Assembly: GCA_020721645.1 (NCBI GenBank)
Contig: DYMH01000021.1
Span: forward strand, 1-36,648
DNA: 36,648 bases
Direction of reading: 5' to 3'
Source of the DNA: Draconibacterium orientale
GTDB lineage: Bacteria; Bacteroidota; Bacteroidia; Bacteroidales; JAADGE01
Position numbers and translations under genes: made by a program. Under the pieces are notes generated by a model, which saw only the letters and a list, made by a program, of their open reading frames with translations, was not told where the DNA came from and did no database searches. This document shows positions 1 to 18,576 of this stretch, piece after piece. Position 1 is the stretch's first letter. Every line of letters begins with the position of its first letter.

Positions 1-2
1 AT

Positions 3-317
3 ATTTTGATGGAAAATATCGAAATTCCAAATTTATATTACACACACAAACGAAAAGTTTTTTTTCGAGACGGACAGTGGCTGGCAGTTGATGACTGCAT
101 GCAATTGAAAGACAGCGAAGTGATTGTAGAAAAAGACGTTCGATGCCGCACCATTGGTGATATTACGTGCACCGGAGTTACGCTTTCGAAAGCCGATAAC
201 TTATTAGATATTATCGACGAAATTGCCGCTTCTCGTATCACCGAACGCGGCGGACGTGCCGACGACAAACGCTCCGAAGCCGCTATGGAAGACAGAAAAA
301 AAGAAGGATATTTTTAA
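3..317 (+). CDS. cysD: Sulfate adenylyltransferase subunit 2, C-terminal part (partial)
   Basis: This is the C-terminal third of CysD, the ATP-sulfurylase subunit that forms APS from ATP and sulfate with the GTPase CysN. The reading frame is open to the left window edge, so the gene starts outside; an in-frame TTG and ATG at 6 and 9 are internal codons, not the start. Visible family hallmarks are the NLYYTHKR segment, FFRDGQW, the conserved RTIGD followed by TG, and the typical end SERITERGG-like stretch with RADD, then SEAAMEDRKKEGYF. The N-terminal PP-loop ATP-binding domain is not in the window. It is followed after 90 bp by cysN on the same strand, the standard pairing. Confidence 0.93.
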   Translation: MLMENIEIPNLYYTHKRKVFFRDGQWLAVDDCMQLKDSEVIVEKDVRCRTIGDITCTGVTLSKADNLLDIIDEIAASRITERGGRADDKRSEAAMEDRKKEGYF

Positions 318-407: not shown

Positions 408-1676
408 GTGGAAACAACAAAAGGATATTTAGATATGCAGCTGCTTCGGTTTACAACAGCCGGAAGCGTTGACGACGGAAAAAGCACACTCATCGGGCGT
501 TTGCTTTACGACAGTAAGTCGATTTTTGAAGACCAAATGGAAGCAATCGAGCTGAGCAGCAAGAAAAAAGGCGAAGAACACGTCAATTTAGCTTTACTCA
601 CCGACGGATTGCGTGCCGAACGAGAACAAGGAATCACGATTGACGTTGCCTACCGATATTTTGCCACGCCGAAGCGAAAATTCATTATTGCCGACACGCC
701 CGGTCATATTCAATATACAAGAAATATGGTAACCGGCGCATCGACCGCAAATTTGGCGTTGATTTTGATTGATGCCCGGCACGGCGTTATCGAGCAAACC
801 CTGCGACATGCTTACATCGCATCTCTTCTGAAAATTCCGCACTTAGTTGTGTGTATCAATAAAATGGACTTGGTCGATTACAGCGAAGATGTTTACAATA
901 AAATAAAAACCAGATTCTTGGAATTTGAGAAAAAATTCGATGTACAAGAAATTCTTTTCGTACCGATAAGTGCACTGAACGGCGATAATGTGGTGGAAGA
1001 ATCGAAAAACATGAATTGGTTCACAGGACCGACTTTGATGAATATTTTGGAAAATATCGACATTTCGCGCGACCAAAATTTCACCGATGCCCGATTTCCG
1101 GTTCAATACGTCATTCGCCCCATGACAGCCGAATATCACGACTATCGCGGATATGCAGGGCGTGTGGACGGCGGCGTGTTCAAAGTCGGCGACCGGGTGA
1201 AAGTTTTACCTTCGGGTTTGGAATCCGAAATCGTATCAATTGATACTTTGGGACAAAGTTTCACAGAGGCATTTCCTCCGCAATCGGTTTGTATTACAAT
1301 AAAAGACGATATAGATATCAGCAGAGGCGGAATGATTGTGAAACCCGACAATGTTCCGCAAATTTCGCAGGAAATCACAGCAATGGTCAGTTGGTTCAAC
1401 GAAAAACCATTATCAATCGGCGGAAAATACGCACTCAAACACACAACAGCCGAAATGAAATGTATTGTTTCGGAAGTCGTTTACAAAATGGACATCAGCA
1501 CTTTGGAAAATAATGAAAATGATAAAAATATCAAAATGAACGATATCGCATGTGTCAAAGTAAAAACAGCCAAACCTTTGTTTTTCGATGCGTACCGAAA
1601 AAACAGATACACCGGAAGTTTTATTTTGGTTGAAGAAGGAACCAATGAAACCGTGGGAGCGGGAATGATTGTTTGA
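408..1676 (+). CDS. cysN: Sulfate adenylyltransferase subunit 1 (GTPase)
   Basis: CysN is the regulatory GTPase subunit of ATP sulfurylase; GTP hydrolysis drives APS synthesis by CysD. The translation GTPase fold is clear: P-loop GSVDDGKST at residues 19-27, DTPGH at 96-100 (G3), NKMD at 151-154 (G4) and SALNGDN (G5), followed by the two EF-Tu-like beta-barrel domains. At 422 residues it is shorter than E. coli CysN (about 475) and carries no C-terminal APS kinase (CysC) fusion; no separate cysC is seen here. The start is a GTG at 408; an ATG at 435 (MQLLRFTTAG) is possible, but the earlier start fits the N-terminal extension usual in CysN. It is cotranscribed in all likelihood with cysD and the permease downstream. 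Confidence 0.96.
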   Translation: METTKGYLDMQLLRFTTAGSVDDGKSTLIGRLLYDSKSIFEDQMEAIELSSKKKGEEHVNLALLTDGLRAEREQGITIDVAYRYFATPKRKFIIADTPGHIQYTRNMVTGASTANLALILIDARHGVIEQTLRHAYIASLLKIPHLVVCINKMDLVDYSEDVYNKIKTRFLEFEKKFDVQEILFVPISALNGDNVVEESKNMNWFTGPTLMNILENIDISRDQNFTDARFPVQYVIRPMTAEYHDYRGYAGRVDGGVFKVGDRVKVLPSGLESEIVSIDTLGQSFTEAFPPQSVCITIKDDIDISRGGMIVKPDNVPQISQEITAMVSWFNEKPLSIGGKYALKHTTAEMKCIVSEVVYKMDISTLENNENDKNIKMNDIACVKVKTAKPLFFDAYRKNRYTGSFILVEEGTNETVGAGMIV

Positions 1677-1742: not shown

Positions 1743-3521
1743 TTGCTTACATTCAATGCAATATTAGTTTTAGCCGCCCTGCTTTTCATTGTAATATCAC
1801 TTTACAAAGAAATAGTAGCTCCTGCCATGACATTTATTATTGCAGTGGGTGTTCTCGGCGTTGCACAAGTGTTGAAACCGAGCGAGATACTCAGCGGATT
1901 TGCCAACGAACAAATCGCCGTGATTTTAATGCTGTTATTATTGGGTGATATTTATCGCCGTTCTTCGGTTTTGGATATCCTTTTCGACCGTGTTTTTAAA
2001 TCAGCGAAAACCACGCGAGGCTTCACAACGCGAATGATGCTTATAGTTGCACCGATTTCGTCGTTTATGAACAATACGCCGCTTGTGGCATTGATGATGC
2101 CTTACACTTTAAATTGGTCTAAACGCAGAAAACAAGCCGTGTCTAAGTTAATGATGCCGCTGTCGTTTGCATCAATATTGGGCGGCTGTGCAACACTTAT
2201 CGGAACATCTACTAATCTGGTTGTCAATAGTTTAGTAACCGACCAGCACATTGTTCCGAATCTGCCGCCTTTGGGTATTTTCGAGTTTACACCCGTTGGA
2301 GCAGCAATGATGATTATTGGTGGTTTTTACATGGTGTTTATCGGACACAAAATTCTCCCAACCACTTCCGGAACCTTAGAAAAATTCACTGAAAACAACA
2401 GAAGTTATGTCGTAGAAGCACGAATCATAGCCGGAAGCGAGCTTATTGGTAAAACAATTGAAGAATCCGGCTTGAAAAAAGAACAAGGAATAAAGATCCT
2501 CGAAATATATCGGTCTGATATTAATTTAATTGATAATATAGAAGAAATCAGAATACAAGAGGGTGACATTTTTTTGTTTGCCGGAAATACGCATTCCATA
2601 GCCGATTTGGTCGAATCAAAAACCGGTATCGTGATTCCGTCTATTGGCATGTTTTCAAAGAAAAAAAACACCGAACTTGTAGAAATCGTTGTATCGCACA
2701 ATTCTTCGATGTTAAATAAAACCATTCGCGAAGAAAATTTCAGAGCCAAATACGATGCCACGGTGATTGCCGTACACCGAAACGGCGAAATTCTTTCCGG
2801 AAAAACGGGCGACGTGCTCATCAAATCCGGCGATGCAATTTTATTGCTTGCGGGCAGTTCGTTCGAAAATCGGATTAATACTGTTGCCGATTTTTATCTG
2901 ATTTCACAAGTCAAAGAAATCAGCCGTCTTGGTGTTCAGAAAACAACCTATTTGGTTATCGGAACACTCTTAACAGTCATTCTTTCGGCAATAGGAATCA
3001 TTCAACTGTTCAATGGTTTATTGTTTTTGATAACAAGTTTGTTGCTGTTAAAAATTACAAACCCGAAAGAATTAGTCAAAGGCTTGGATTACGAATTATT
3101 TCTCATCATCGCCCTCTCTTTGGCACTCGGCACGGCAATGATGAAAACAGGTTTGGCTGAATTTATCGCCTCTAATATCTTGGAATTTTTAATGCCTTTG
3201 GGCAAAATCGGTTTGCTTGCCGGAATTTATTTCATTACCGCAATCATGGCGGCTTTCATAACCAATAAAGCCGCAGTTGCCGTAATTTTTCCCATTTCAC
3301 TCAGTTTGGCACTCAAACTCAATGTCGATACCACGCCGTTTATTTTGGTCGTTGCCTACGCTGCCGCCGCAAATTTTATGACACCAATTGGCTATCAAAC
3401 CAATTTAATGGTTTACGGACCCGGCGGATACAAATTTAAAGATTTCTTGAAAGTAGGAACGCCTTTAACGTTGATATACATGATTGTAACAGTGATTATT
3501 TTGAGTTTAATCTATTTTTAG
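1743..3521 (+). CDS. SLC13/DASS-family permease with two RCK_C (TrkA-C) domains, probable sulfate transporter
   Basis: A 592-residue inner-membrane transporter. Hydrophobic segments occupy about residues 1-205 and 400-592, and between them lie two cytoplasmic RCK_C domains (about 222-295 and 305-385, each with the GDxxLxxG-type turn). The family signature near the C terminus, AANFMTPIGYQTNLMVYG, and NNTPLVALMMP and TLIGTSTNLVVN in the N-terminal half are typical of the divalent anion:Na+ symporter fold. The substrate is inferred as sulfate because the gene lies between cysN and cysQ; related proteins carry other anions. The predicted start is TTG at 1743, since the nearby ATG codons are out of frame. 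The C-terminal half may be fused regulation by nucleotide or metabolite binding, as in other RCK_C-bearing SLC13 proteins. Confidence 0.85.
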   Translation: MLTFNAILVLAALLFIVISLYKEIVAPAMTFIIAVGVLGVAQVLKPSEILSGFANEQIAVILMLLLLGDIYRRSSVLDILFDRVFKSAKTTRGFTTRMMLIVAPISSFMNNTPLVALMMPYTLNWSKRRKQAVSKLMMPLSFASILGGCATLIGTSTNLVVNSLVTDQHIVPNLPPLGIFEFTPVGAAMMIIGGFYMVFIGHKILPTTSGTLEKFTENNRSYVVEARIIAGSELIGKTIEESGLKKEQGIKILEIYRSDINLIDNIEEIRIQEGDIFLFAGNTHSIADLVESKTGIVIPSIGMFSKKKNTELVEIVVSHNSSMLNKTIREENFRAKYDATVIAVHRNGEILSGKTGDVLIKSGDAILLLAGSSFENRINTVADFYLISQVKEISRLGVQKTTYLVIGTLLTVILSAIGIIQLFNGLLFLITSLLLLKITNPKELVKGLDYELFLIIALSLALGTAMMKTGLAEFIASNILEFLMPLGKIGLLAGIYFITAIMAAFITNKAAVAVIFPISLSLALKLNVDTTPFILVVAYAAAANFMTPIGYQTNLMVYGPGGYKFKDFLKVGTPLTLIYMIVTVIILSLIYF

Positions 3522-3715: not shown

Positions 3716-4546
3716 ATGGTTGAATTGATGAAAACAGAAAATTTATTAAATTTTGCAATACAAGCCTCCGTTGAAGCGGGATTTGAAATAATGAAAGTTT
3801 TTAAATCCAACGATTTTCAAATTGAACATAAACTCGATTCTTCCCCCGTAACTATTGCCGATAAAAACGCACACCAAATTATTGTTGATATTCTTGAAAA
3901 CACAAAATTACCCGTTTTAAGCGAAGAAGGACGAAATATACATCACGAAGAAAGAATAAATTGGGAACGCTATTGGCTGGTCGATCCGTTGGACGGAACC
4001 AAGGAATTTGTGAAACGAAATACCGATTTTACGGTAAATATCGCTTTAATCGAAAAAAATAAACCTATTCTTGGGGTGATTTATATTCCGGTAACAAAAG
4101 AACTGTTTTACGGCGAAAAAGAAATGGGTTCTTTTAAATATCAAGTCGAAAATGAAAATTCGGATTTTCAGTTCGAAAATATCTTTCACAAATTGCAAAA
4201 ACTCGATGCAACTTGTAGAAACGAAAATCTGACAATTGTCGGCAGCCGTTCGCACGTAAATGCAGAAACTGTCGCTTATTTTGAAACATTGAAAACAAAA
4301 TATCCTAATACCGAAATATCATCGCGCGGAAGTTCGCTGAAATTTTGTATCTTAGCAGAAGGAAAAGCACATTTGGCACCGCGAATCGGTCCGACTTATG
4401 AGTGGGACACCGCTGCCGGACACGCAATTTTGAACGCCGCCGGTGGTTACGTGTATCAATGGGGAAGCGACACAGAGCTTATTTACAATAAGGAAAATTT
4501 ACTCAACCCAAATTTTTTGGCAAAAACAGCAAACAGTATATCGTAA
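3716..4546 (+). CDS. cysQ: 3'(2'),5'-bisphosphate nucleotidase CysQ
   Basis: CysQ hydrolyses 3'-phosphoadenosine 5'-phosphate (PAP), or PAPS, to keep sulfate assimilation free of product inhibition. It belongs to the inositol-monophosphatase superfamily: the metal-binding EEG is at residues 70-72, DPLDGT at 90-95 and WDTAAGHAIL with the last metal ligand D231 near the C terminus. The length of 276 is slightly above E. coli CysQ (246). Two starts are in frame: ATG 3716 and ATG 3728 (MKTENLLNFA); the second gives an N terminus closer to the family. The presence of CysQ implies a PAPS branch, although no APS kinase or PAPS reductase is inside the window. The gene sits 195 bp behind the permease, across an inverted repeat, so may have its own promoter; a TAnnTTTG match lies at 3646-3653 without a good upstream element. 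Confidence 0.93.
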   Translation: MVELMKTENLLNFAIQASVEAGFEIMKVFKSNDFQIEHKLDSSPVTIADKNAHQIIVDILENTKLPVLSEEGRNIHHEERINWERYWLVDPLDGTKEFVKRNTDFTVNIALIEKNKPILGVIYIPVTKELFYGEKEMGSFKYQVENENSDFQFENIFHKLQKLDATCRNENLTIVGSRSHVNAETVAYFETLKTKYPNTEISSRGSSLKFCILAEGKAHLAPRIGPTYEWDTAAGHAILNAAGGYVYQWGSDTELIYNKENLLNPNFLAKTANSIS

Positions 4547-4604: not shown

Positions 4605-5918
4605 ATGACAACAAAATTCCAATTAGTTTGCAGAAAATGCAAGCACAGAATCGACAGTTTTGAAGAATGGTTTTCGCACAACCAAAAATGCCCAAAATGC
4701 GGCAATAACATTGTGGATACTGAATATTCGACCGATAAAAACAAAATCCTCGAACTGATTTCAAAAGATGCTAAACCCGAAAGTTTGTTCCACTATTTCG
4801 ATTTTCTTCCTTTGAACGATAAAGCAAACATCGTAACCGATGGCGAAGGCATTGCACCCATTGAACGGTGGAAGTTTTTGGAAGATTTTGCCAAACGAAA
4901 ATACAATCTTTCGCTTCAAATCTATATCAACAGAAACGATAAAAGTTTTGCTACCGGAACCTTCAAAGACAAAGGCGGTGCACTGGCAGCAAGTGTTTTG
5001 AAAGAAGCCGGAATAAAAGAATACGTTGTTGCAAGCACCGGAAACACCGCAACGGCTTTCGCACATTATTTGGCAAAAGCCGGAATTTCGTGCTCCGTTT
5101 TCGTTCCGCACGATGCTTTGCCCGACAGCGTTGCTCATATCTCCACCTATGGACAAAAACTGTTCCGTGTAAAAGGCGATTATGCTTACACCAAAAAAGT
5201 AGCTGCCGAGTATGCTAAAAAATATAAAATCCAAATGACAGGCGGAAACCTCGACCCGCTTCGTTTGGAAGCTAAAAAAACACTTCTCTACGAAATATTA
5301 CGAATAATCGGTCGTGTGCCCGATGTTTATATTCAAGCACTGAGCGGAGGAACCGGACCGTTTGCCATGGAAAAAGCAATGAAAGATATTGCCGGAACCG
5401 GACTGGTCGAAAAGCTACCGAGATTCCTGCTATCGCAAGGAGACAGATGTGCTCCGCAGGCTCACGCTTGGGAAAAAGCAAAAAAAGATAAATTCCCTCA
5501 ACACTGGGAAACCGTTTATCCGATTTACGAAAACCCTGTTACTTTAATACCGACCATTGCAACCGGACACCCCGGATTGTATCCGCTAATGGGACCCTTG
5601 GTTCAGAAAACCGGCGGCGAAATTTTCCAAATTCGCGAAGAATCGGCTGTTGATATTGCCCGATTGGTTGCCTACGAACGAGTGATAAAAATCGGTCCGG
5701 CTTCGGCTGCCGGAATTGCCGGCTTGTTCGAGTCGCTTAAAAGAGGATACTTTAAAGACGGCGAATCTGTCCTGATAAACATGGGAGAAGGAGCCGGCAG
5801 AGCTCTCAGTTTTATGCAGGAAACCGCATACACGGTTCAGGATATACATTCTGTCGATGATTGTTTGAGATTCGACCGCGATGCTTTGAAAGCAAAAGTT
5901 TGGGAGCCGTTTGAATAA
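4605..5918 (+). CDS. PLP-dependent threonine synthase-fold enzyme; candidate cysteate synthase
   Basis: A 437-residue fold-type II PLP enzyme. The N terminus carries a zinc-ribbon-like pair, C9-x2-C12 and C29-x2-C32. The PLP lysine is K121 in TGTFKDKGG; STGNTATA (144-151) and SGGTGP are the cofactor and phosphate-binding loops, and NMGEGAGRAL lies near the end. This is the threonine-synthase family, but the gene sits at the end of a cysD-cysN-permease-cysQ cluster and not with homoserine kinase or aspartate-pathway genes. Methanosarcina cysteate synthase, which joins O-phosphoserine and sulfite to give cysteate, evolved from this same family and has a similar Cys-rich N terminus; many Bacteroidota need cysteate for sulfonolipids (capnine). 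Threonine synthase remains the default; cysteate synthase is inferred from context and from resemblance remembered, not computed. Start ATG 4605 places the zinc ribbon at the very N terminus. Confidence 0.8.
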   Translation: MTTKFQLVCRKCKHRIDSFEEWFSHNQKCPKCGNNIVDTEYSTDKNKILELISKDAKPESLFHYFDFLPLNDKANIVTDGEGIAPIERWKFLEDFAKRKYNLSLQIYINRNDKSFATGTFKDKGGALAASVLKEAGIKEYVVASTGNTATAFAHYLAKAGISCSVFVPHDALPDSVAHISTYGQKLFRVKGDYAYTKKVAAEYAKKYKIQMTGGNLDPLRLEAKKTLLYEILRIIGRVPDVYIQALSGGTGPFAMEKAMKDIAGTGLVEKLPRFLLSQGDRCAPQAHAWEKAKKDKFPQHWETVYPIYENPVTLIPTIATGHPGLYPLMGPLVQKTGGEIFQIREESAVDIARLVAYERVIKIGPASAAGIAGLFESLKRGYFKDGESVLINMGEGAGRALSFMQETAYTVQDIHSVDDCLRFDRDALKAKVWEPFE

Positions 5919-9494: not shown

Positions 9495-11663
9495 TTATAC
9501 TTTAATTTCTTTGTAATTATCACCTACAACCTTAGTTTTCTCAAGTACATAAAGTATAGTTTTTTCCTCGTTTAAACATATTCTTTTATGGTAGCTATCC
9601 CTCAAAAGAGAGTTGTTCTTAACTAAATGGCTTCGATAGTCATTTAAAGGTGTAGATTTCAGAATTACACTTTTTAAAATTGTGATTCTATCATCACTCA
9701 AATTAAATGAATTGGAAATTAACTTATAAACTGCATTTATAAACTTATCCGATTTTTTTCTGAAAGCATCTTTCCATTCATTTTCAGTATTCAACAATGA
9801 GTATCTATGAGCCCAACCAAGTGAAGATGTCCTACCATCCCAAATTGGATAGTCATTTTGTGTCAATAAAGCTTTTCGTAATATATCATCCTTGCTTTCA
9901 AATAATAATAAAAATTTATCACAAATGCTCGTAAATTCTAGAATATTAAATTCCTCGCCAACTTTAGAAAAATCTAATAGAAATTTAATTTCACCTTTAA
10001 GAAAAATATCATCCTCTGCTTTGAATATTTGCAATTTCCAATTACTCTCAGATTGTATCAATGTTGCTTTCAATTTTTCTTCTTCGATATGTTTTGTCGC
10101 AAATCCAGATTTAAGTGTTTTACTTGAAAGAAATTCATAAATATTATCGCATCCGCTTGAAAGTTCATTGATAAGCCCAATTGCACCAATAAAAGCAGAA
10201 GCACTATCAATTGTTGCATTTTGGACGATATTTCTTACAACCCTCATCCATTCTGAAAATAATTCGGAATTGAAGGTTTCTGAATTTAGTACGTATTTTG
10301 TTTGTGCATAGAATAAAACTCTTTGTTTATATTCTGTCTTGGACGCTTTTGCAAACTCTATAAATAAGTTATTATCTATCTCTGTGTTACTGTTAATCTT
10401 TACTTTTCTATTTTCGATAAAATCCCATAGTATTAAATTGACAGGAAATAATTCATCGTTCTTATCTTTTGAGTAAACATTCAAACAGTTTTTTAAATAA
10501 TCAAAAGAGCCCTTTGTGATAAAATCATCAGGACTTACATTGGCAGGATTATTGAAAAGGGTTGTTATTCTGCGCTCTATTCTTTCTCTTTTAACAGCTT
10601 CGTCAGTAATATTCTTTTCTTTCTTTTCTTCAAGAATTTTTCTTGTATTCAATTCATTTTCTGAATTTTCGAAGATTTCAAGATTTTGAGCATAGTTACT
10701 TATTGCTATACCGGCAATAAATTTTATTATTTCGTTATCAATTATATTATCATCGCCTCTATGTTTCCAAAATAAATCAGTCCAAACAGTATCAATTCTA
10801 TGTGAAAAGGTTTTTTCTGTAAGTTCTTTCCATTTTTCTTTATTATTTTCACTTAATTCAAGCTCCTTTTCAAAGACATTCTTCTTTATGTGTTTTTCAA
10901 ATCGGGCTTTAAAGGTCTCAAAATCTGTCAATCCTTTGCCCCTCGCATTCATTTTTATATAAAGGTCGTCAGTTAAGCCTATATCATTAAGTTGCTTGAA
11001 ATGAAATGTGATTGGTGGGTTTTCTGATGTCAGTTTTTGCCAAAAAATCTTTAATTCCTCGTCATTTTTGCTTTGTAATCGTTCTTCAATTGCATCAAGC
11101 ATTACTAACATAGCCTTTATTGTAGGGTCTTTTTTCCACGATAAAAAGAACCATTTTGAATCGGATATTTTTTCACTAATCGTTTTCCCTATGCCCAAAA
11201 AATCTCCGTTAACAACAAGTTCATTACAAAACTCTCTTGAAGATATTCTTGTCTCGTAAGTAAATTTTATAAAATGCTTTTTAGTGTTCGGCAAGTCTCC
11301 CGTTTTTAAAGCAATATACCAGTGAAGTAGGAATAATGTTGTTAAACGTTGTTGACCGTCTAACGGTTGAAAAACATCTTTTTCAACATTTCCATAAACG
11401 AAATCCAATTCAAGCGTGCCTTTTTCAGATTCAACTGCTTCAATTATGCTTTTTAAGAATAAAGACCTTATTTTATTGGTTTTTTCATTTTTCCTGCCTT
11501 GTGCAAAGTCCCGCTGAATTATGGGAATCTGAATTTTAGACGTTTCGGAAAGTAATTCCCAAAACGATATGGAATTTAAGCGTTCTAACAATTCGGTTGC
11601 GAGAACTTTACCTTCAATATCTTTCATATTATTTGCGATTTTTTCGATTCTTTCAATTTTCAT
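9495..11663 (-). CDS. DUF262-domain protein, second gene of a GmrSD-like pair
   Basis: A 722-residue cytoplasmic protein (from ATG 11663) with the N-terminal DUF262 (GmrS-like, ParB/Srx-fold) domain: IPIIQRDFAQGR with Q50-R51, and DGQQR at 102-106 followed by LTTLFLLHWY. A second conserved block reads YIKMNARGKGLTDFE, which is the DUF262 region that recognises nucleotide or DNA ends. I see no DUF1524 HNH motif; the long C-terminal part is lysine-rich, alpha-helical and unrecognised. It starts 5 bp after the stop of the DUF262-DUF1524 gene; a TTG at 11672 would overlap that stop. In GmrSD and SspE-like systems DUF262 senses or hydrolyses NTP and controls DNA cleavage of modified phage DNA; here the non-nuclease partner probably regulates or targets the nuclease. 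By eye the gene is more A/T-rich than the neighbouring core genes, which suits an acquired module. Confidence 0.85.
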   Translation of the reverse strand: MKIERIEKIANNMKDIEGKVLATELLERLNSISFWELLSETSKIQIPIIQRDFAQGRKNEKTNKIRSLFLKSIIEAVESEKGTLELDFVYGNVEKDVFQPLDGQQRLTTLFLLHWYIALKTGDLPNTKKHFIKFTYETRISSREFCNELVVNGDFLGIGKTISEKISDSKWFFLSWKKDPTIKAMLVMLDAIEERLQSKNDEELKIFWQKLTSENPPITFHFKQLNDIGLTDDLYIKMNARGKGLTDFETFKARFEKHIKKNVFEKELELSENNKEKWKELTEKTFSHRIDTVWTDLFWKHRGDDNIIDNEIIKFIAGIAISNYAQNLEIFENSENELNTRKILEEKKEKNITDEAVKRERIERRITTLFNNPANVSPDDFITKGSFDYLKNCLNVYSKDKNDELFPVNLILWDFIENRKVKINSNTEIDNNLFIEFAKASKTEYKQRVLFYAQTKYVLNSETFNSELFSEWMRVVRNIVQNATIDSASAFIGAIGLINELSSGCDNIYEFLSSKTLKSGFATKHIEEEKLKATLIQSESNWKLQIFKAEDDIFLKGEIKFLLDFSKVGEEFNILEFTSICDKFLLLFESKDDILRKALLTQNDYPIWDGRTSSLGWAHRYSLLNTENEWKDAFRKKSDKFINAVYKLISNSFNLSDDRITILKSVILKSTPLNDYRSHLVKNNSLLRDSYHKRICLNEEKTILYVLEKTKVVGDNYKEIKV

Positions 11664-11668
11664 GAAAC

Positions 11669-13363
11669 TCAAGATTTAGAGTTGTACACAACACTTTTTA
11701 AGTCTTCAAAATAATCTGTTCTGTCATTTTCATTCCATATCTCTATGTCTTTCAGATTTTTTGAATAATATTTCATAAATACATTTCTGGTACAAGTAGG
11801 GATAAATGTTCCGTTCTTTTCATTCTCAATTATTTTATTTCTTTTATTTTTGAAAGAATCATTTTTATAAGAACGGTTTGTGCCTCTATCAAGTAAACAT
11901 AGGTTGCGAATGCTATTATCATCATCACCTAAGACATATTCAATAATTGACTGAAATTCATCTTCTGCAATTTGATTAATTTCTTTTATTGCGTTCTCTA
12001 TCTGTAAATTAAGTTCCAAATTAGTATGTTGTTCTGTTTTTGCAAAGTTGTTAATTAACCAAGAATTTTGGTCTTCATATTTTACTTTAACCTTAGTTGC
12101 AATTGCATGGATATGTTCAATATCCCAACCAATCTTTTTATCTTTATATCGTACAAATGGGAAACGCGTAGTTTTTTCTTTATTATTAAGCATTGTTTGA
12201 ATGTTATGCAGTAATAAAATCTTTCTTATCAAATATGAATGCTTTCCATATTCCAATTCTTTCAGATTCTCACATTTCACTTTTTCGATAATTTTGATAT
12301 CAAGCAATTTTCTAAATTCTTGTTTTTGCTTGTTTTTGACTTCTTTTAGCAAGTCGGTTATTTCTGAATCTGCTGAAATTAAAAAGCCGATTTTATGATA
12401 TAATTCTCGCTCTGTAAACCATTCTTCAATAGTTTGAAATATTCTTTTAATTTCTTTCCAGTTTGTATCAATTTCATCTTTGCTTTTTGATTTGAATTTT
12501 TCTGAAAAGAAACGAAATGTTGAGTATTGGTCGTTACCATTTTTTATTCCATCGATATTTTTCATAATATTGAACAGGTACTCAATACGAGTTGGCAGCT
12601 CGTTCTCTGAATTATTTATAAAATACCAAAGTTCGTCATTTTGCAATGAGTATTCCATTCTGTCCCATTCAGAAGCTATTTCTAACTGTCTTAATCTTAT
12701 TTCTTCAGTATCGGAATCAGGGAAATTTGAACTATTAAGAAAAAGGGCTTTTATTAGTTCTGCGTTTGTTAATGGGATTTTTCCCATATTAATGCGGGTA
12801 AAGATTTCAATTGCATCTTTTTCAGACGAAACTTCATACCAAATTACCTTCGTGCTTTCTAAAAATGGAGTAATAAACTTTGAACTTATTGAATTATAAC
12901 CTTGATTTGCCTTTGTTTGAAACCATTCTTTAATTTTCTGATATGCTTGAAATATATGAAAGTAATCAATATTTCCAATAGATTCCTTTTCGCTCTTTAA
13001 ATCAATGCTTTGCAGAAATAGTTTACTGTTAGAATTTTCTTTATTTCTCGTTTCATACTCTATTTCAAAACTTTTCCTTTCACTTTCGATGAAACGTTCC
13101 AAGTGCTTTAAAATTAGAAATATTGTTGTCAACCTTTGTTGACCGTCTAAAACTTCATAATGATTATTGATTTTTTTCACAACTACAGGTTGCAAACAAT
13201 ACCATTCGTTATCCTTTTTTCCTGTTTTTGTAATAAAATCCCAAACATCATTTAATAAATCTTCAACCTGCCTTTTTGTCCAGCGGTAACCTCTTTGATA
13301 TGAAGGAATAAAGAATTTATTTTCTAAAAGTTCTCCGATTGTCTTTTCTGTTAAACAACTCAT
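11669..13363 (-). CDS. DUF262 and DUF1524 (HNH) protein, GmrSD-like nuclease
   Basis: A 564-residue protein with both halves of a GmrSD-type enzyme. The DUF262 domain has SYQRGYRW (Q23-R24) and DGQQR at 73-77, plus FTRINMGKIPLTNAELIKA. The C-terminal DUF1524 domain has WDIEHIHA with the nuclease dyad E416-H417, then NLCLLDRGTNRSYKNDSF, the downstream Asn/Lys part of the HNH/beta-beta-alpha-metal site. GmrSD family members cut DNA bearing modified cytosines or phosphorothioate-linked contexts; the substrate here is unknown. It is the first gene of a two-gene operon with another DUF262 protein. The ATG at 13363 lies 4 bp behind the stop codon of a decayed exonuclease gene on the same strand, so the operon once had at least three genes. 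Confidence 0.87.
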   Translation of the reverse strand: MSCLTEKTIGELLENKFFIPSYQRGYRWTKRQVEDLLNDVWDFITKTGKKDNEWYCLQPVVVKKINNHYEVLDGQQRLTTIFLILKHLERFIESERKSFEIEYETRNKENSNSKLFLQSIDLKSEKESIGNIDYFHIFQAYQKIKEWFQTKANQGYNSISSKFITPFLESTKVIWYEVSSEKDAIEIFTRINMGKIPLTNAELIKALFLNSSNFPDSDTEEIRLRQLEIASEWDRMEYSLQNDELWYFINNSENELPTRIEYLFNIMKNIDGIKNGNDQYSTFRFFSEKFKSKSKDEIDTNWKEIKRIFQTIEEWFTERELYHKIGFLISADSEITDLLKEVKNKQKQEFRKLLDIKIIEKVKCENLKELEYGKHSYLIRKILLLHNIQTMLNNKEKTTRFPFVRYKDKKIGWDIEHIHAIATKVKVKYEDQNSWLINNFAKTEQHTNLELNLQIENAIKEINQIAEDEFQSIIEYVLGDDDNSIRNLCLLDRGTNRSYKNDSFKNKRNKIIENEKNGTFIPTCTRNVFMKYYSKNLKDIEIWNENDRTDYFEDLKSVVYNSKS

Positions 13364-15579: not shown

Positions 15580-18576
15580 TTATTTTACAGATTTCATTAT
15601 CATAATTTCATCGCTCGAAAGATTGTATAAAGCATAAATCAGATTATTCAATTTTTCATTCGTCTCAATTACTATTTTGTATGCTGTATTCAAATCCTTT
15701 GCATAGGAATTAAAATATTCTTCCCATTCGTCCGATTGTTTAAGACTTAGTTTAATCTTTTGTTTTTCTAATTCTTCAATGAACGTTTTAAAATCATATT
15801 TATAAAATTCATCTAATTTTTGTGTTATTGATTTAATTTTTAAATGACTTGTTATTCTATTTACAAATTTATCTGAATTTTTAAGTTGTTGTTTTGATTT
15901 CAATATCGTATCTACACAATCAATAAATGGTTTTTGATTTTCTATTGACATGTCGATAATAGGAATTTGGTCTAAATCGACCAATTTAATTTGCGGTGTA
16001 CTGTCCAAATTTGTTACTAAATAATTTATAAAAAACCAAGTTATCAAGTCAGAATTTAAGATTGCTAAAATATATCTAAAATCGAAATTAGAGTTTAGAT
16101 TGTAAATAAAATACAAAGACTGCTCAGGGAAAACTCCATTTTCATCGTAACTTGCAATAATTGTATTTCCTGTTTTTCTGACTAATATTTTTGGTTTTGC
16201 CGAGAGTTTTGTTTTGTCTGTTGTCCTACCTGTAATGTTTTCGGGAATAAACTCAAACCAATAATTTTCTTTTATTTCATATCGTTGGATTGACGAACCT
16301 TTAAAAACCGGAATTTGTTTTGTGTTAATTTGTTCGGTTGTAATCAATTCCGATTTGCCGCCAAAGCCTGATGTAATTTGACAAACTTCTCTTAGTTTTA
16401 CGGAATTGGTAATCATTTTGTCAATTAACGACTTTGCTGTCTGACTTTTATACGCTTTAAACTGAAAATCTTGTTTTGTAAGTAATTGTTGTTTCGTGAA
16501 ATTAATAAATCCATTAAGAGGCTCGGATTTTATTGTGATGGAATAATCTTCCTCTTTCCTGTTTTGGATAACAAAAGTCATTGAATCGGTGATAATTCCG
16601 GGAAAATCCCACTTATAAATGACTTCAACTAATTTATAATTTTGTAAAACCCTTTCCCGTAAATAATTAAATGAGGCATTATAACCGAAACGGTCAGGTA
16701 CAATAAATGAGAAAAAACCGTTTTCTTTAAGCAATGACAAAGAACGAATTATAAAAATTTCAAATAAATTTGGCAAATACGTATTGCTTCCAAAATGATT
16801 TATCAACCACTTTTGAGTAATTTCATCTACCGTATTGTGTCCATGTTTTCCGATTAGTGAAACCCAAGGCGGATTACCGATTACAATATCAAAGCCACCG
16901 TTTTGCATGATTTCAGGAAATTCCAAATTCCAATCAAATGCCTTTTCTCCGGCTATTTCTTTGTTGTCAATCAACGAATTACCGCATTTGATATTCCCGC
17001 TTAAATCTGATAATTTACGTTCCTTTTTAGCTGTGTTCAGCCAAAGCGAAAGTTTTGCAATTTCCACGCTTTCTTCATTTATATCAACTCCATAAATGTT
17101 TTTTTCCAAAATCGATTTGTCAGTGTCAAAAAATCGAATGGTTTTGTTTTCCAATTCGCTTATTTTGTCGTCAATTTCTTTATGTTCCGAGATTAGATAA
17201 TGTAAAGCTTCAATCAAAAAAGCACCGCTTCCGCAGGCAGGGTCGATAATTTTTAAATTGAATAACCATTCTTTATAAGCTGATAATTTTGCAAATAAAT
17301 CCTTACCCTCTTTTGTTTGTTTATTGTTTTTTCGATGTTTTTCCGAAATTTCTAAATTCGATATTTGCAATTCATTTTTTTTGATTGAACAGTACGAACC
17401 TATTGTTTTTTCAATGATGTATTTTGTAATGTATTTTGGCGTATAAAAAACGCCGTCTTTTTTACGTTTTGTTTTGGTTTTATCAATTGTTTCGCCTTGA
17501 ATTAGGGCTGCAACTTCTTCAAATTCGTTTAACGAATGTTCAAAAATATGACCTAAAATATTTACGTCTATTTCCGAACTGAAATCATAAGCGGCTAATA
17601 TTAAGCTGTCTGTTTCTAAAAATTTATTTTCAATAATCAAATCCGGATTGTCTAAAATTTCGTCCGGAAAAAACAAACCGCCGTTGTATGCAGGCACTTC
17701 GCCCCAGTTCGGATATACATAACCATTATTTAAGTGCAAGAAAAGTGCCTGAAAACGAGTGTATAATGAAATCTGCATTCCTTCGTTTGCCATGACTTTC
17801 CATTTTTCAATAGTTCTGGCAATAGCATTTGGAGGAATTAATCCGGTATCTTCGGCAAAAAGTATAAACAAAATACGGTCGAGCAGTTTTTGCGTTTTTT
17901 TGTATAAAATTACTTTGTCGTATTGTGTGTTGTTTTTTACTAAACTACTGTAAATATTTTCTTTATATGTTTTGTAATCTTTATAGAATTTATCAGAAAT
18001 ACTTTCTTCGTGAAATTCAGTTTCTTGTTTTAATTTTAAAGGAATTTCGTTTAAAATGCTTTCGCAACTTAAAAACAAATAAAACCTCTTAAATTCATCT
18101 TTTGATAAATCGAATAAATTAAATTCTTCAAATTCGGTGGCATTGTCGATAAAAAAGCGCAAAGAATGAAAATTTGACGTAATTACATATCGACATTTCG
18201 ATTGGTTATTTTTATAGTTAAATGCTTGTTTTGTAATACTTTCTAAATTTGGTGTTTTCGTTGATTTTAACTCAATAACAGCAATTGCCACACCGTTTTT
18301 TAATATTGCACCGTCTGCTTTTTTATTATCAGTTTGATTTTTGTATTCAGTTGTTAAATTGTAATTTATATCAGGATTAATTGTATAGCCAAGAACATTG
18401 ACAAAAATTTCTCTTAAAAATCCCTCTTGATAATTTTCTTCTTTTAAATTTAAAATATTATACAACCGAAGTTTATTCCCGTAGAAATTTGTAAATCGCT
18501 CAAAAGCCTGATTTATTTTCTCATCATCAAGCGATTTTAAATACTTATTTACAACGGATTTTTGAAATATCGACAT
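15580..18576 (-). CDS. Type IIG restriction-modification enzyme (Eco57I-like, gamma N6-adenine methylase)
   Basis: A single 998-residue polypeptide with nuclease, methyltransferase and specificity parts. The N-terminal nuclease is of PD-(D/E)XK type: D88 in KKADGAIL and E102-x-K104 in AVIELKSTK. KKDGVFYTPKYITKYIIEKT (about 395) opens the methylase, with motif I DPACGSG at 445-451 and the catalytic NPPW at 568-571 (N6-adenine). The C-terminal 300 residues, with the TaqI-like segment ITSGFGGKSEL and GSSIQRYEIKENYWFEF, form the target recognition domain. All catalytic residues are present, so the enzyme should cut and modify; no separate methylase or specificity gene is seen. It has a fitting promoter 24 bp upstream of the ATG. 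Codon use is A/T-rich. Confidence 0.92.
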   Translation of the reverse strand: MSIFQKSVVNKYLKSLDDEKINQAFERFTNFYGNKLRLYNILNLKEENYQEGFLREIFVNVLGYTINPDINYNLTTEYKNQTDNKKADGAILKNGVAIAVIELKSTKTPNLESITKQAFNYKNNQSKCRYVITSNFHSLRFFIDNATEFEEFNLFDLSKDEFKRFYLFLSCESILNEIPLKLKQETEFHEESISDKFYKDYKTYKENIYSSLVKNNTQYDKVILYKKTQKLLDRILFILFAEDTGLIPPNAIARTIEKWKVMANEGMQISLYTRFQALFLHLNNGYVYPNWGEVPAYNGGLFFPDEILDNPDLIIENKFLETDSLILAAYDFSSEIDVNILGHIFEHSLNEFEEVAALIQGETIDKTKTKRKKDGVFYTPKYITKYIIEKTIGSYCSIKKNELQISNLEISEKHRKNNKQTKEGKDLFAKLSAYKEWLFNLKIIDPACGSGAFLIEALHYLISEHKEIDDKISELENKTIRFFDTDKSILEKNIYGVDINEESVEIAKLSLWLNTAKKERKLSDLSGNIKCGNSLIDNKEIAGEKAFDWNLEFPEIMQNGGFDIVIGNPPWVSLIGKHGHNTVDEITQKWLINHFGSNTYLPNLFEIFIIRSLSLLKENGFFSFIVPDRFGYNASFNYLRERVLQNYKLVEVIYKWDFPGIITDSMTFVIQNRKEEDYSITIKSEPLNGFINFTKQQLLTKQDFQFKAYKSQTAKSLIDKMITNSVKLREVCQITSGFGGKSELITTEQINTKQIPVFKGSSIQRYEIKENYWFEFIPENITGRTTDKTKLSAKPKILVRKTGNTIIASYDENGVFPEQSLYFIYNLNSNFDFRYILAILNSDLITWFFINYLVTNLDSTPQIKLVDLDQIPIIDMSIENQKPFIDCVDTILKSKQQLKNSDKFVNRITSHLKIKSITQKLDEFYKYDFKTFIEELEKQKIKLSLKQSDEWEEYFNSYAKDLNTAYKIVIETNEKLNNLIYALYNLSSDEIMIMKSVK

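Follow-up and report, generated by a model that had tools for sequence, protein, structure and literature searches.

A threonine-synthase-like enzyme in a Bacteroidales sulfate cluster is a probable cysteate synthase for sulfonolipids

Introduction

Sulfonolipids affect gliding, host immunity and the multicellular development of choanoflagellates, and predicting which bacteria produce them depends on knowing the cysteate synthase. The window analyzed here, a whole contig of 36,648 nucleotides (C181) from a Draconibacterium orientale assembly of 3.83 Mb that is 97% complete, raises the question of what a relative of threonine synthase does at the end of a series of sulfate assimilation genes. 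An earlier note on this DNA had described the gene as a threonine-synthase homologue lying behind cysD, cysN, a permease and cysQ, and suggested that it may encode a cysteate synthase.

Results

A conserved PALP enzyme closes the sulfate gene series

The gene, hereafter CS3, ends a run of genes on one strand in which the order given in the earlier note was found again, with cysD truncated (Table 1). Its product scored 148.7 bits against PF00291 (PALP; gathering cut-off 35) and its lysine K121, in the motif TGTFKD, was invariant across the orthologue alignment, placing it in this superfamily. The nearest solved relatives by sequence (PDB) were threonine synthases, and so the description as a threonine-synthase homologue held; in the fold ranking of the AlphaFold2 model (pLDDT 89.9) threonine synthases also came out best, followed by CapA2 of Alistipes (9k3c). 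The PDB entries 9k3c, 9k2p and 7U7H are CapA2 of Alistipes finegoldii, CapA1 of Capnocytophaga and SulA, respectively; the CapA1 and CapA2 work, with structure entries 9k2p and 9k3c, is reportedly that of Liu 2022.

Orthologues of CS3 aligned over the full length at 43-76% identity, with STGN invariant, the SGGTGP loop nearly invariant, C9 and C29 invariant, C12 and C32 nearly so, and FHYFDFLPLN (residues 62-71) kept. The conservation of the Cys pairs and of FHYFDFLPLN among orthologues this diverged indicates that CS3 is a real, selected gene. These same features had been proposed as signs of the cysteate synthase branch, and here the proposal stood only in part: both are present and conserved, but the Cys pairs were rejected as a mark of cysteate synthases, as the genome's own thrC has the same pairs and CapA2 is without them. 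FHYFDFLPL is a hallmark of the CS3 orthologue group only.

Table 1. Features of the sulfate cluster and of CS3 in the window
Feature	Position	Strand	Remarks
cysD, C-terminal third, cut by contig end	3..317	+	N-terminal third at the end of contig C77, behind cysH
cysN, sulfate adenylyltransferase GTPase subunit	408..1676	+	GTP_EFTU and GTP-eEF1A_C domains; 750 bits to syntenic-cluster cysN
Permease (CitMHS/TrkA_C), probable sulfate transporter	1743..3521	+	PF03600, PF02080, PF00939; in 13/80 related loci
cysQ, PAP phosphatase / inositol-monophosphatase family	3716..4546	+	PF00459, 164.8 bits; precedes CS3, in the same orientation, in 20/80 related loci
CS3, proposed cysteate synthase; threonine-synthase-like PALP enzyme	4605..5918	+	ORF, ATG start, 437 aa
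N-terminal Cys pairs C9/C12 and C29/C32, zinc-ribbon-like	4629..4700	+	Orthologue alignment
Lys121 codon, predicted PLP Schiff-base lysine in TGTFKD	4965..4967	+	Aligns with threonine synthase SFKD
SGGTGP, residues 247-252, predicted PLP-phosphate loop	5343..5360	+	Alignment of CS3, CapA2 and threonine synthases

CS3 falls below the curated synthase cut-offs and branches with CapA2 in a rooted tree

When scored against the NCBIfam models, CS3 matched the threonine synthase model PRK08197 best, at 166.1 bits (cut-off 303), followed by the cysteate synthase model TIGR03844 at 131.8 bits (cut-off 324.9) and the thrC model TIGR00260 at 79.4 bits (cut-off 167.1), and it had no match to the CapA1 model NF053679 (cut-off 600). 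The same sub-cut-off pattern recurred in each of the 16 sequences of the orthologue set, with TIGR03844 scores of 94-134 bits across the group. Because every score lies below its cut-off, these sequence comparisons place CS3 in a group that is named by no curated model. The comparison of TIGR03844 with threonine synthase models that the earlier note had put forward as a check accordingly went against a cysteate synthase call by model, the threonine synthase model scoring higher and itself staying below cut-off.

As a three-group tree without an outgroup could not decide the root, CysK-like outgroups were added. In the rooted tree CS3 joined CapA2 in one branch (support 99/97) that excluded two threonine synthase groups; CapA2 sits on a long branch, and a grouping of CS3 with the threonine synthases was not rejected by the AU test (p = 0.144). 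In hhalign, CS3 scored 243 against its own-type thrC and 175 against CapA2. Two motifs missing from the threonine synthases are common to CS3 and CapA2: a GTG phosphate loop that follows 'QA' (QA..GTG) and an SQ...P..AW segment.

The genome holds a sulfite source, a separate thrC and SulA

A second contig of the same genome, C77, carries cysH and, on its edge, the first third of cysD; since the window starts with the last third, the two contigs probably lie next to each other, some 290 bases apart, and cysD is split over both (locus L169 on C77; window 1-317). The C77-encoded CysH carries the APS reductase pattern CC...CxxC, and CysH from a relative exceeds the TIGR02055 cut-off. Between cysH and cysD lies a 184-aa ORF (L169:387-938, C77) with no match in the reference set used. 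Beside the sulfate cluster, window positions 9495-13363 and 15580-18576 hold a probable defence island; it combines a type IIG restriction-methylase-like protein, which scored 676 bits against a PADLOC model, with a pair of GmrSD_N (DUF262) proteins.

The genome, a metagenome bin of 97% completeness, yielded no NIR_SIR sulfite reductase in a search with a model that matches 11 of 14 control genomes. Likewise, neither a canonical CysK-family protein nor a CapA1 (NF053679) was found over cut-off in the same bin. The only CysK-like protein of the genome (L083:4128-5609, C55; 494 aa) is a PALP protein extended at its N terminus, and it fits no curated family over cut-off.

The earlier note had pointed to another threonine synthase and a sulfonolipid acyltransferase as genes to look for, and both turned up, so that neither result it had named as a refutation was obtained. 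A separate canonical thrC is located on C175 (176 bits over cut-off), where it passes TIGR00260, and C115, which is likewise not the contig of the window, encodes a SulA/CapB-type alpha-oxoamine synthase with 599 bits to SulA (7U7H). This protein scored 593 bits to cysteate-C-fatty acyltransferase and 264 to serine palmitoyltransferase (Spt), and it keeps the lysine at the position of SulA Lys281, a residue proposed as a SulA marker (PMC9304779). The cysteate-using SulA and a source of sulfite (cysH, C77) thus occur together in the genome, and in relatives SulA is also linked to CS3.

CS3 is linked to SulA and sulfate genes in relatives

Among 80 related loci, drawn from named genomes and many of them on short contigs, the neighbours of CS3 were cysQ (20), VOC (17), permease (13), cysN (13), cysD (12), SulA (11) and cysH (11). 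The intact order in relatives consists of a divergent SulA followed by VOC-cysH-cysD-cysN-permease-(SDR)-cysQ-CS3, with the SDR present in one genus. As the 3-ketocapnine reductase step needs an SDR (PMC11211663), the cluster SDR is a candidate for this enzyme, though SDRs are numerous. In other families (genomes G021, G061, G101, G127 and G139) SulA adjoins CS3 directly, 35-270 bases apart on one strand. Altogether, of the 27 genomes that carry both genes, 12 have them no more than about 9 kb apart and five no more than 300 bp apart on one strand; even at a chance rate of 2%, the binomial p for 12/27 is far below 1e-10.

The VOC gene (L169:1938-3020 on C77, L072:9424-10506, L146:8803-9987), a conserved partner of CS3, encodes a double-VOC protein (360-395 aa; glyoxalase/dioxygenase fold). 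In rumen Bacteroidales it immediately precedes CS3, and in one family it adjoins cysH and SulA. The PDB held no relative of the protein by sequence, and a fold search returned generic double-VOC enzymes only. A TPR protein, a DUF368-like protein and an AroE-like protein (Salinivirgaceae) are also common neighbours of CS3 and look unrelated. Next to SulA in genomes without CS3, no PALP partner was found.

CS3 and CapA2 exclude each other in the sampled genomes of the order

We then turned to an even sample of 149 genomes from the order, the assemblies being metagenome bins, with the caveat that the association tests ignore phylogeny. CS3 was present in 31, SulA in 108 and TIGR03844/CapA2 in 37 (36 over the TIGR03844 cut-off and one contig-cut copy). 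Not one of the 149 genomes carries both CS3 and CapA2, compared with 7.7 expected (Fisher p = 4e-5, phylogeny ignored), and the exclusion persists within SulA carriers (Fisher p = 4e-6, phylogeny ignored); family f19 has one genus with CapA2 and another with CS3. Such a pattern would be expected if one cysteate synthase had replaced the other. SulA accompanies both enzymes, being present in 27 of 31 CS3 carriers and 35 of 37 CapA2 carriers. Taken alone, the association of CS3 with SulA is weak (p = 0.04, phylogeny ignored), and the linkage of the two genes is the stronger evidence.

Four CS3 genomes are without SulA, two of them rather complete. In these two (G042, locus L078; G056, locus L079), CS3 follows cysHDN or sits within a polysaccharide-type region, and as SulA is not detectable there, the CS3 product may have another use in them. 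CapA1 was rejected at cut-off as the cysteate source of the order: 0 of 149 genomes had NF053679 over its 600-bit cut-off, and most matches look like ordinary CysK. Furthermore, 46 of the 108 genomes with SulA lack CS3, CapA2 and an over-cut-off CapA1 alike, so SulA requires neither CS3 nor CapA2 and a further cysteate source must exist in the order.

Discussion

Gene order, linkage to SulA, exclusion of CapA2 and the sulfite reductase search (none found in the bin) together argue that CS3 is a cysteate synthase which would be fed by phosphoserine and CysDN/CysH sulfite and would supply SulA for sulfonolipids, a reading to which we give a probability of roughly 84%. The suggestion of the earlier note is thereby supported, with catalysis assigned by analogy: reaction and substrates are taken from known enzymes, Methanosarcina MA3297 and the Bacteroidota types (PMC10191378). 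In the proposed pathway, the permease would take up sulfate, CysDN would convert it to APS, and CysH, as an APS reductase, would reduce APS to sulfite. CS3 would then form cysteate from phosphoserine and sulfite, SulA/CapB would turn cysteate into 3-ketocapnine, and an SDR reductase would yield capnine for sulfonolipids. All sulfite of the cluster would presumably go to cysteate.

Other roles for CS3 have to be weighed against this reading. It is quite unlikely that CS3 is an O-phosphoserine sulfhydrylase making cysteine in place of the missing CysK: its position in a sulfate assimilation cluster, a fold that also matches OASS and the failure to find a canonical CysK in the genome would all suit such an enzyme, but the cluster stops at sulfite with no sulfite reductase found, and CysK-like proteins occur in many CS3 genomes as well (e.g., G030, G061, G067, G073). 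Moreover, a sulfhydrylase leaves the SulA linkage and the CapA2 exclusion unexplained. The same two observations, SulA adjacency and CapA2 exclusion, are given no reason if CS3 is a second threonine synthase that came to lie beside sulfate genes by chance, which we regard as very unlikely even though the best curated model (PRK08197, 166 bits), the best folds and the closer hhalign score to thrC all point in that direction; CS3 falls below every threonine synthase cut-off, carries GGTGP in place of the GNAGN loop and resides in a genome that already has a canonical thrC.

Lastly, CS3 could be a cysteate synthase that serves another sulfonate, such as taurine or sulfolactate, and not sulfonolipids. 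The fairly complete genomes G042 and G056, which hold CS3 without SulA, speak for this, but SulA occurs in 27 of 31 CS3 genomes, lies within about 9 kb of CS3 in 12 and is present in the genome studied here, making this the least probable of the three.

Beyond the function of CS3 itself, we lean, with less assurance, towards the view that it adds a third cysteate synthase lineage to those of CapA1 and CapA2, and that the cluster is a dedicated sulfate-to-sulfonolipid pathway whose sulfite serves cysteate only. A search of the open literature returned no description of such a third lineage. If this view is true, sulfate would, in the absence of a sulfite reductase, be assimilated into membrane lipid and not into cysteine, and a cluster ending at sulfite for lipids would change the reading of cysDNH as 'assimilatory sulfate reduction' in metagenomes. 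As the lineage bears no cysteate synthase name, its best curated model being a 'threonine synthase' below cut-off, many Bacteroidales, including lineages of rumen and sediment, would have their capacity for sulfonolipids missed or mis-drawn.

Comparison with known systems

Of the known enzymes, class II threonine synthases (Aquifex 2zsj, Thermus 1v7c and the genome's own thrC) are closest to CS3 in PDB fold and sequence and have the SFKD/TFKD lysine, STGN and PxRxExxKT motifs in common with it. They differ in their phosphate loop and genome context and in that CS3, only 22-26% identical to them, has an extra segment at 285-305. CapA2 (9k3c), the sister branch in the tree, has in common with CS3 a PALP fold extended at both termini, the two aligning with Z 34.4 and an rmsd of 2.5 across 368 residues, and is likewise found with SulA; its phosphate loop, GSGTG, is of the GTG type, as is SGGTGP of CS3, whereas solved threonine synthases have GNAGN. 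Conversely, CS3 is about 21% identical to the solved CapA2 and keeps the Cys pairs, which CapA2 is without, and a threonine-synthase-like DPxRxExKKT where CapA2 has NVARRDGMGTT.

CapA1 (9k2p, NF053679) shares the broad PALP fold and the reaction proposed for CS3, but belongs to a CysK-like branch, with 14% identity to CS3 in the structural alignment. SulA/CapB (7U7H), which has an orthologue in the genome, is a partner enzyme and no homologue of CS3. According to a review, Alistipes and Odoribacter use an archaeal-type cysteate synthase and others use CapA (PMC10191378); at cut-off, CS3 matches neither of these types.
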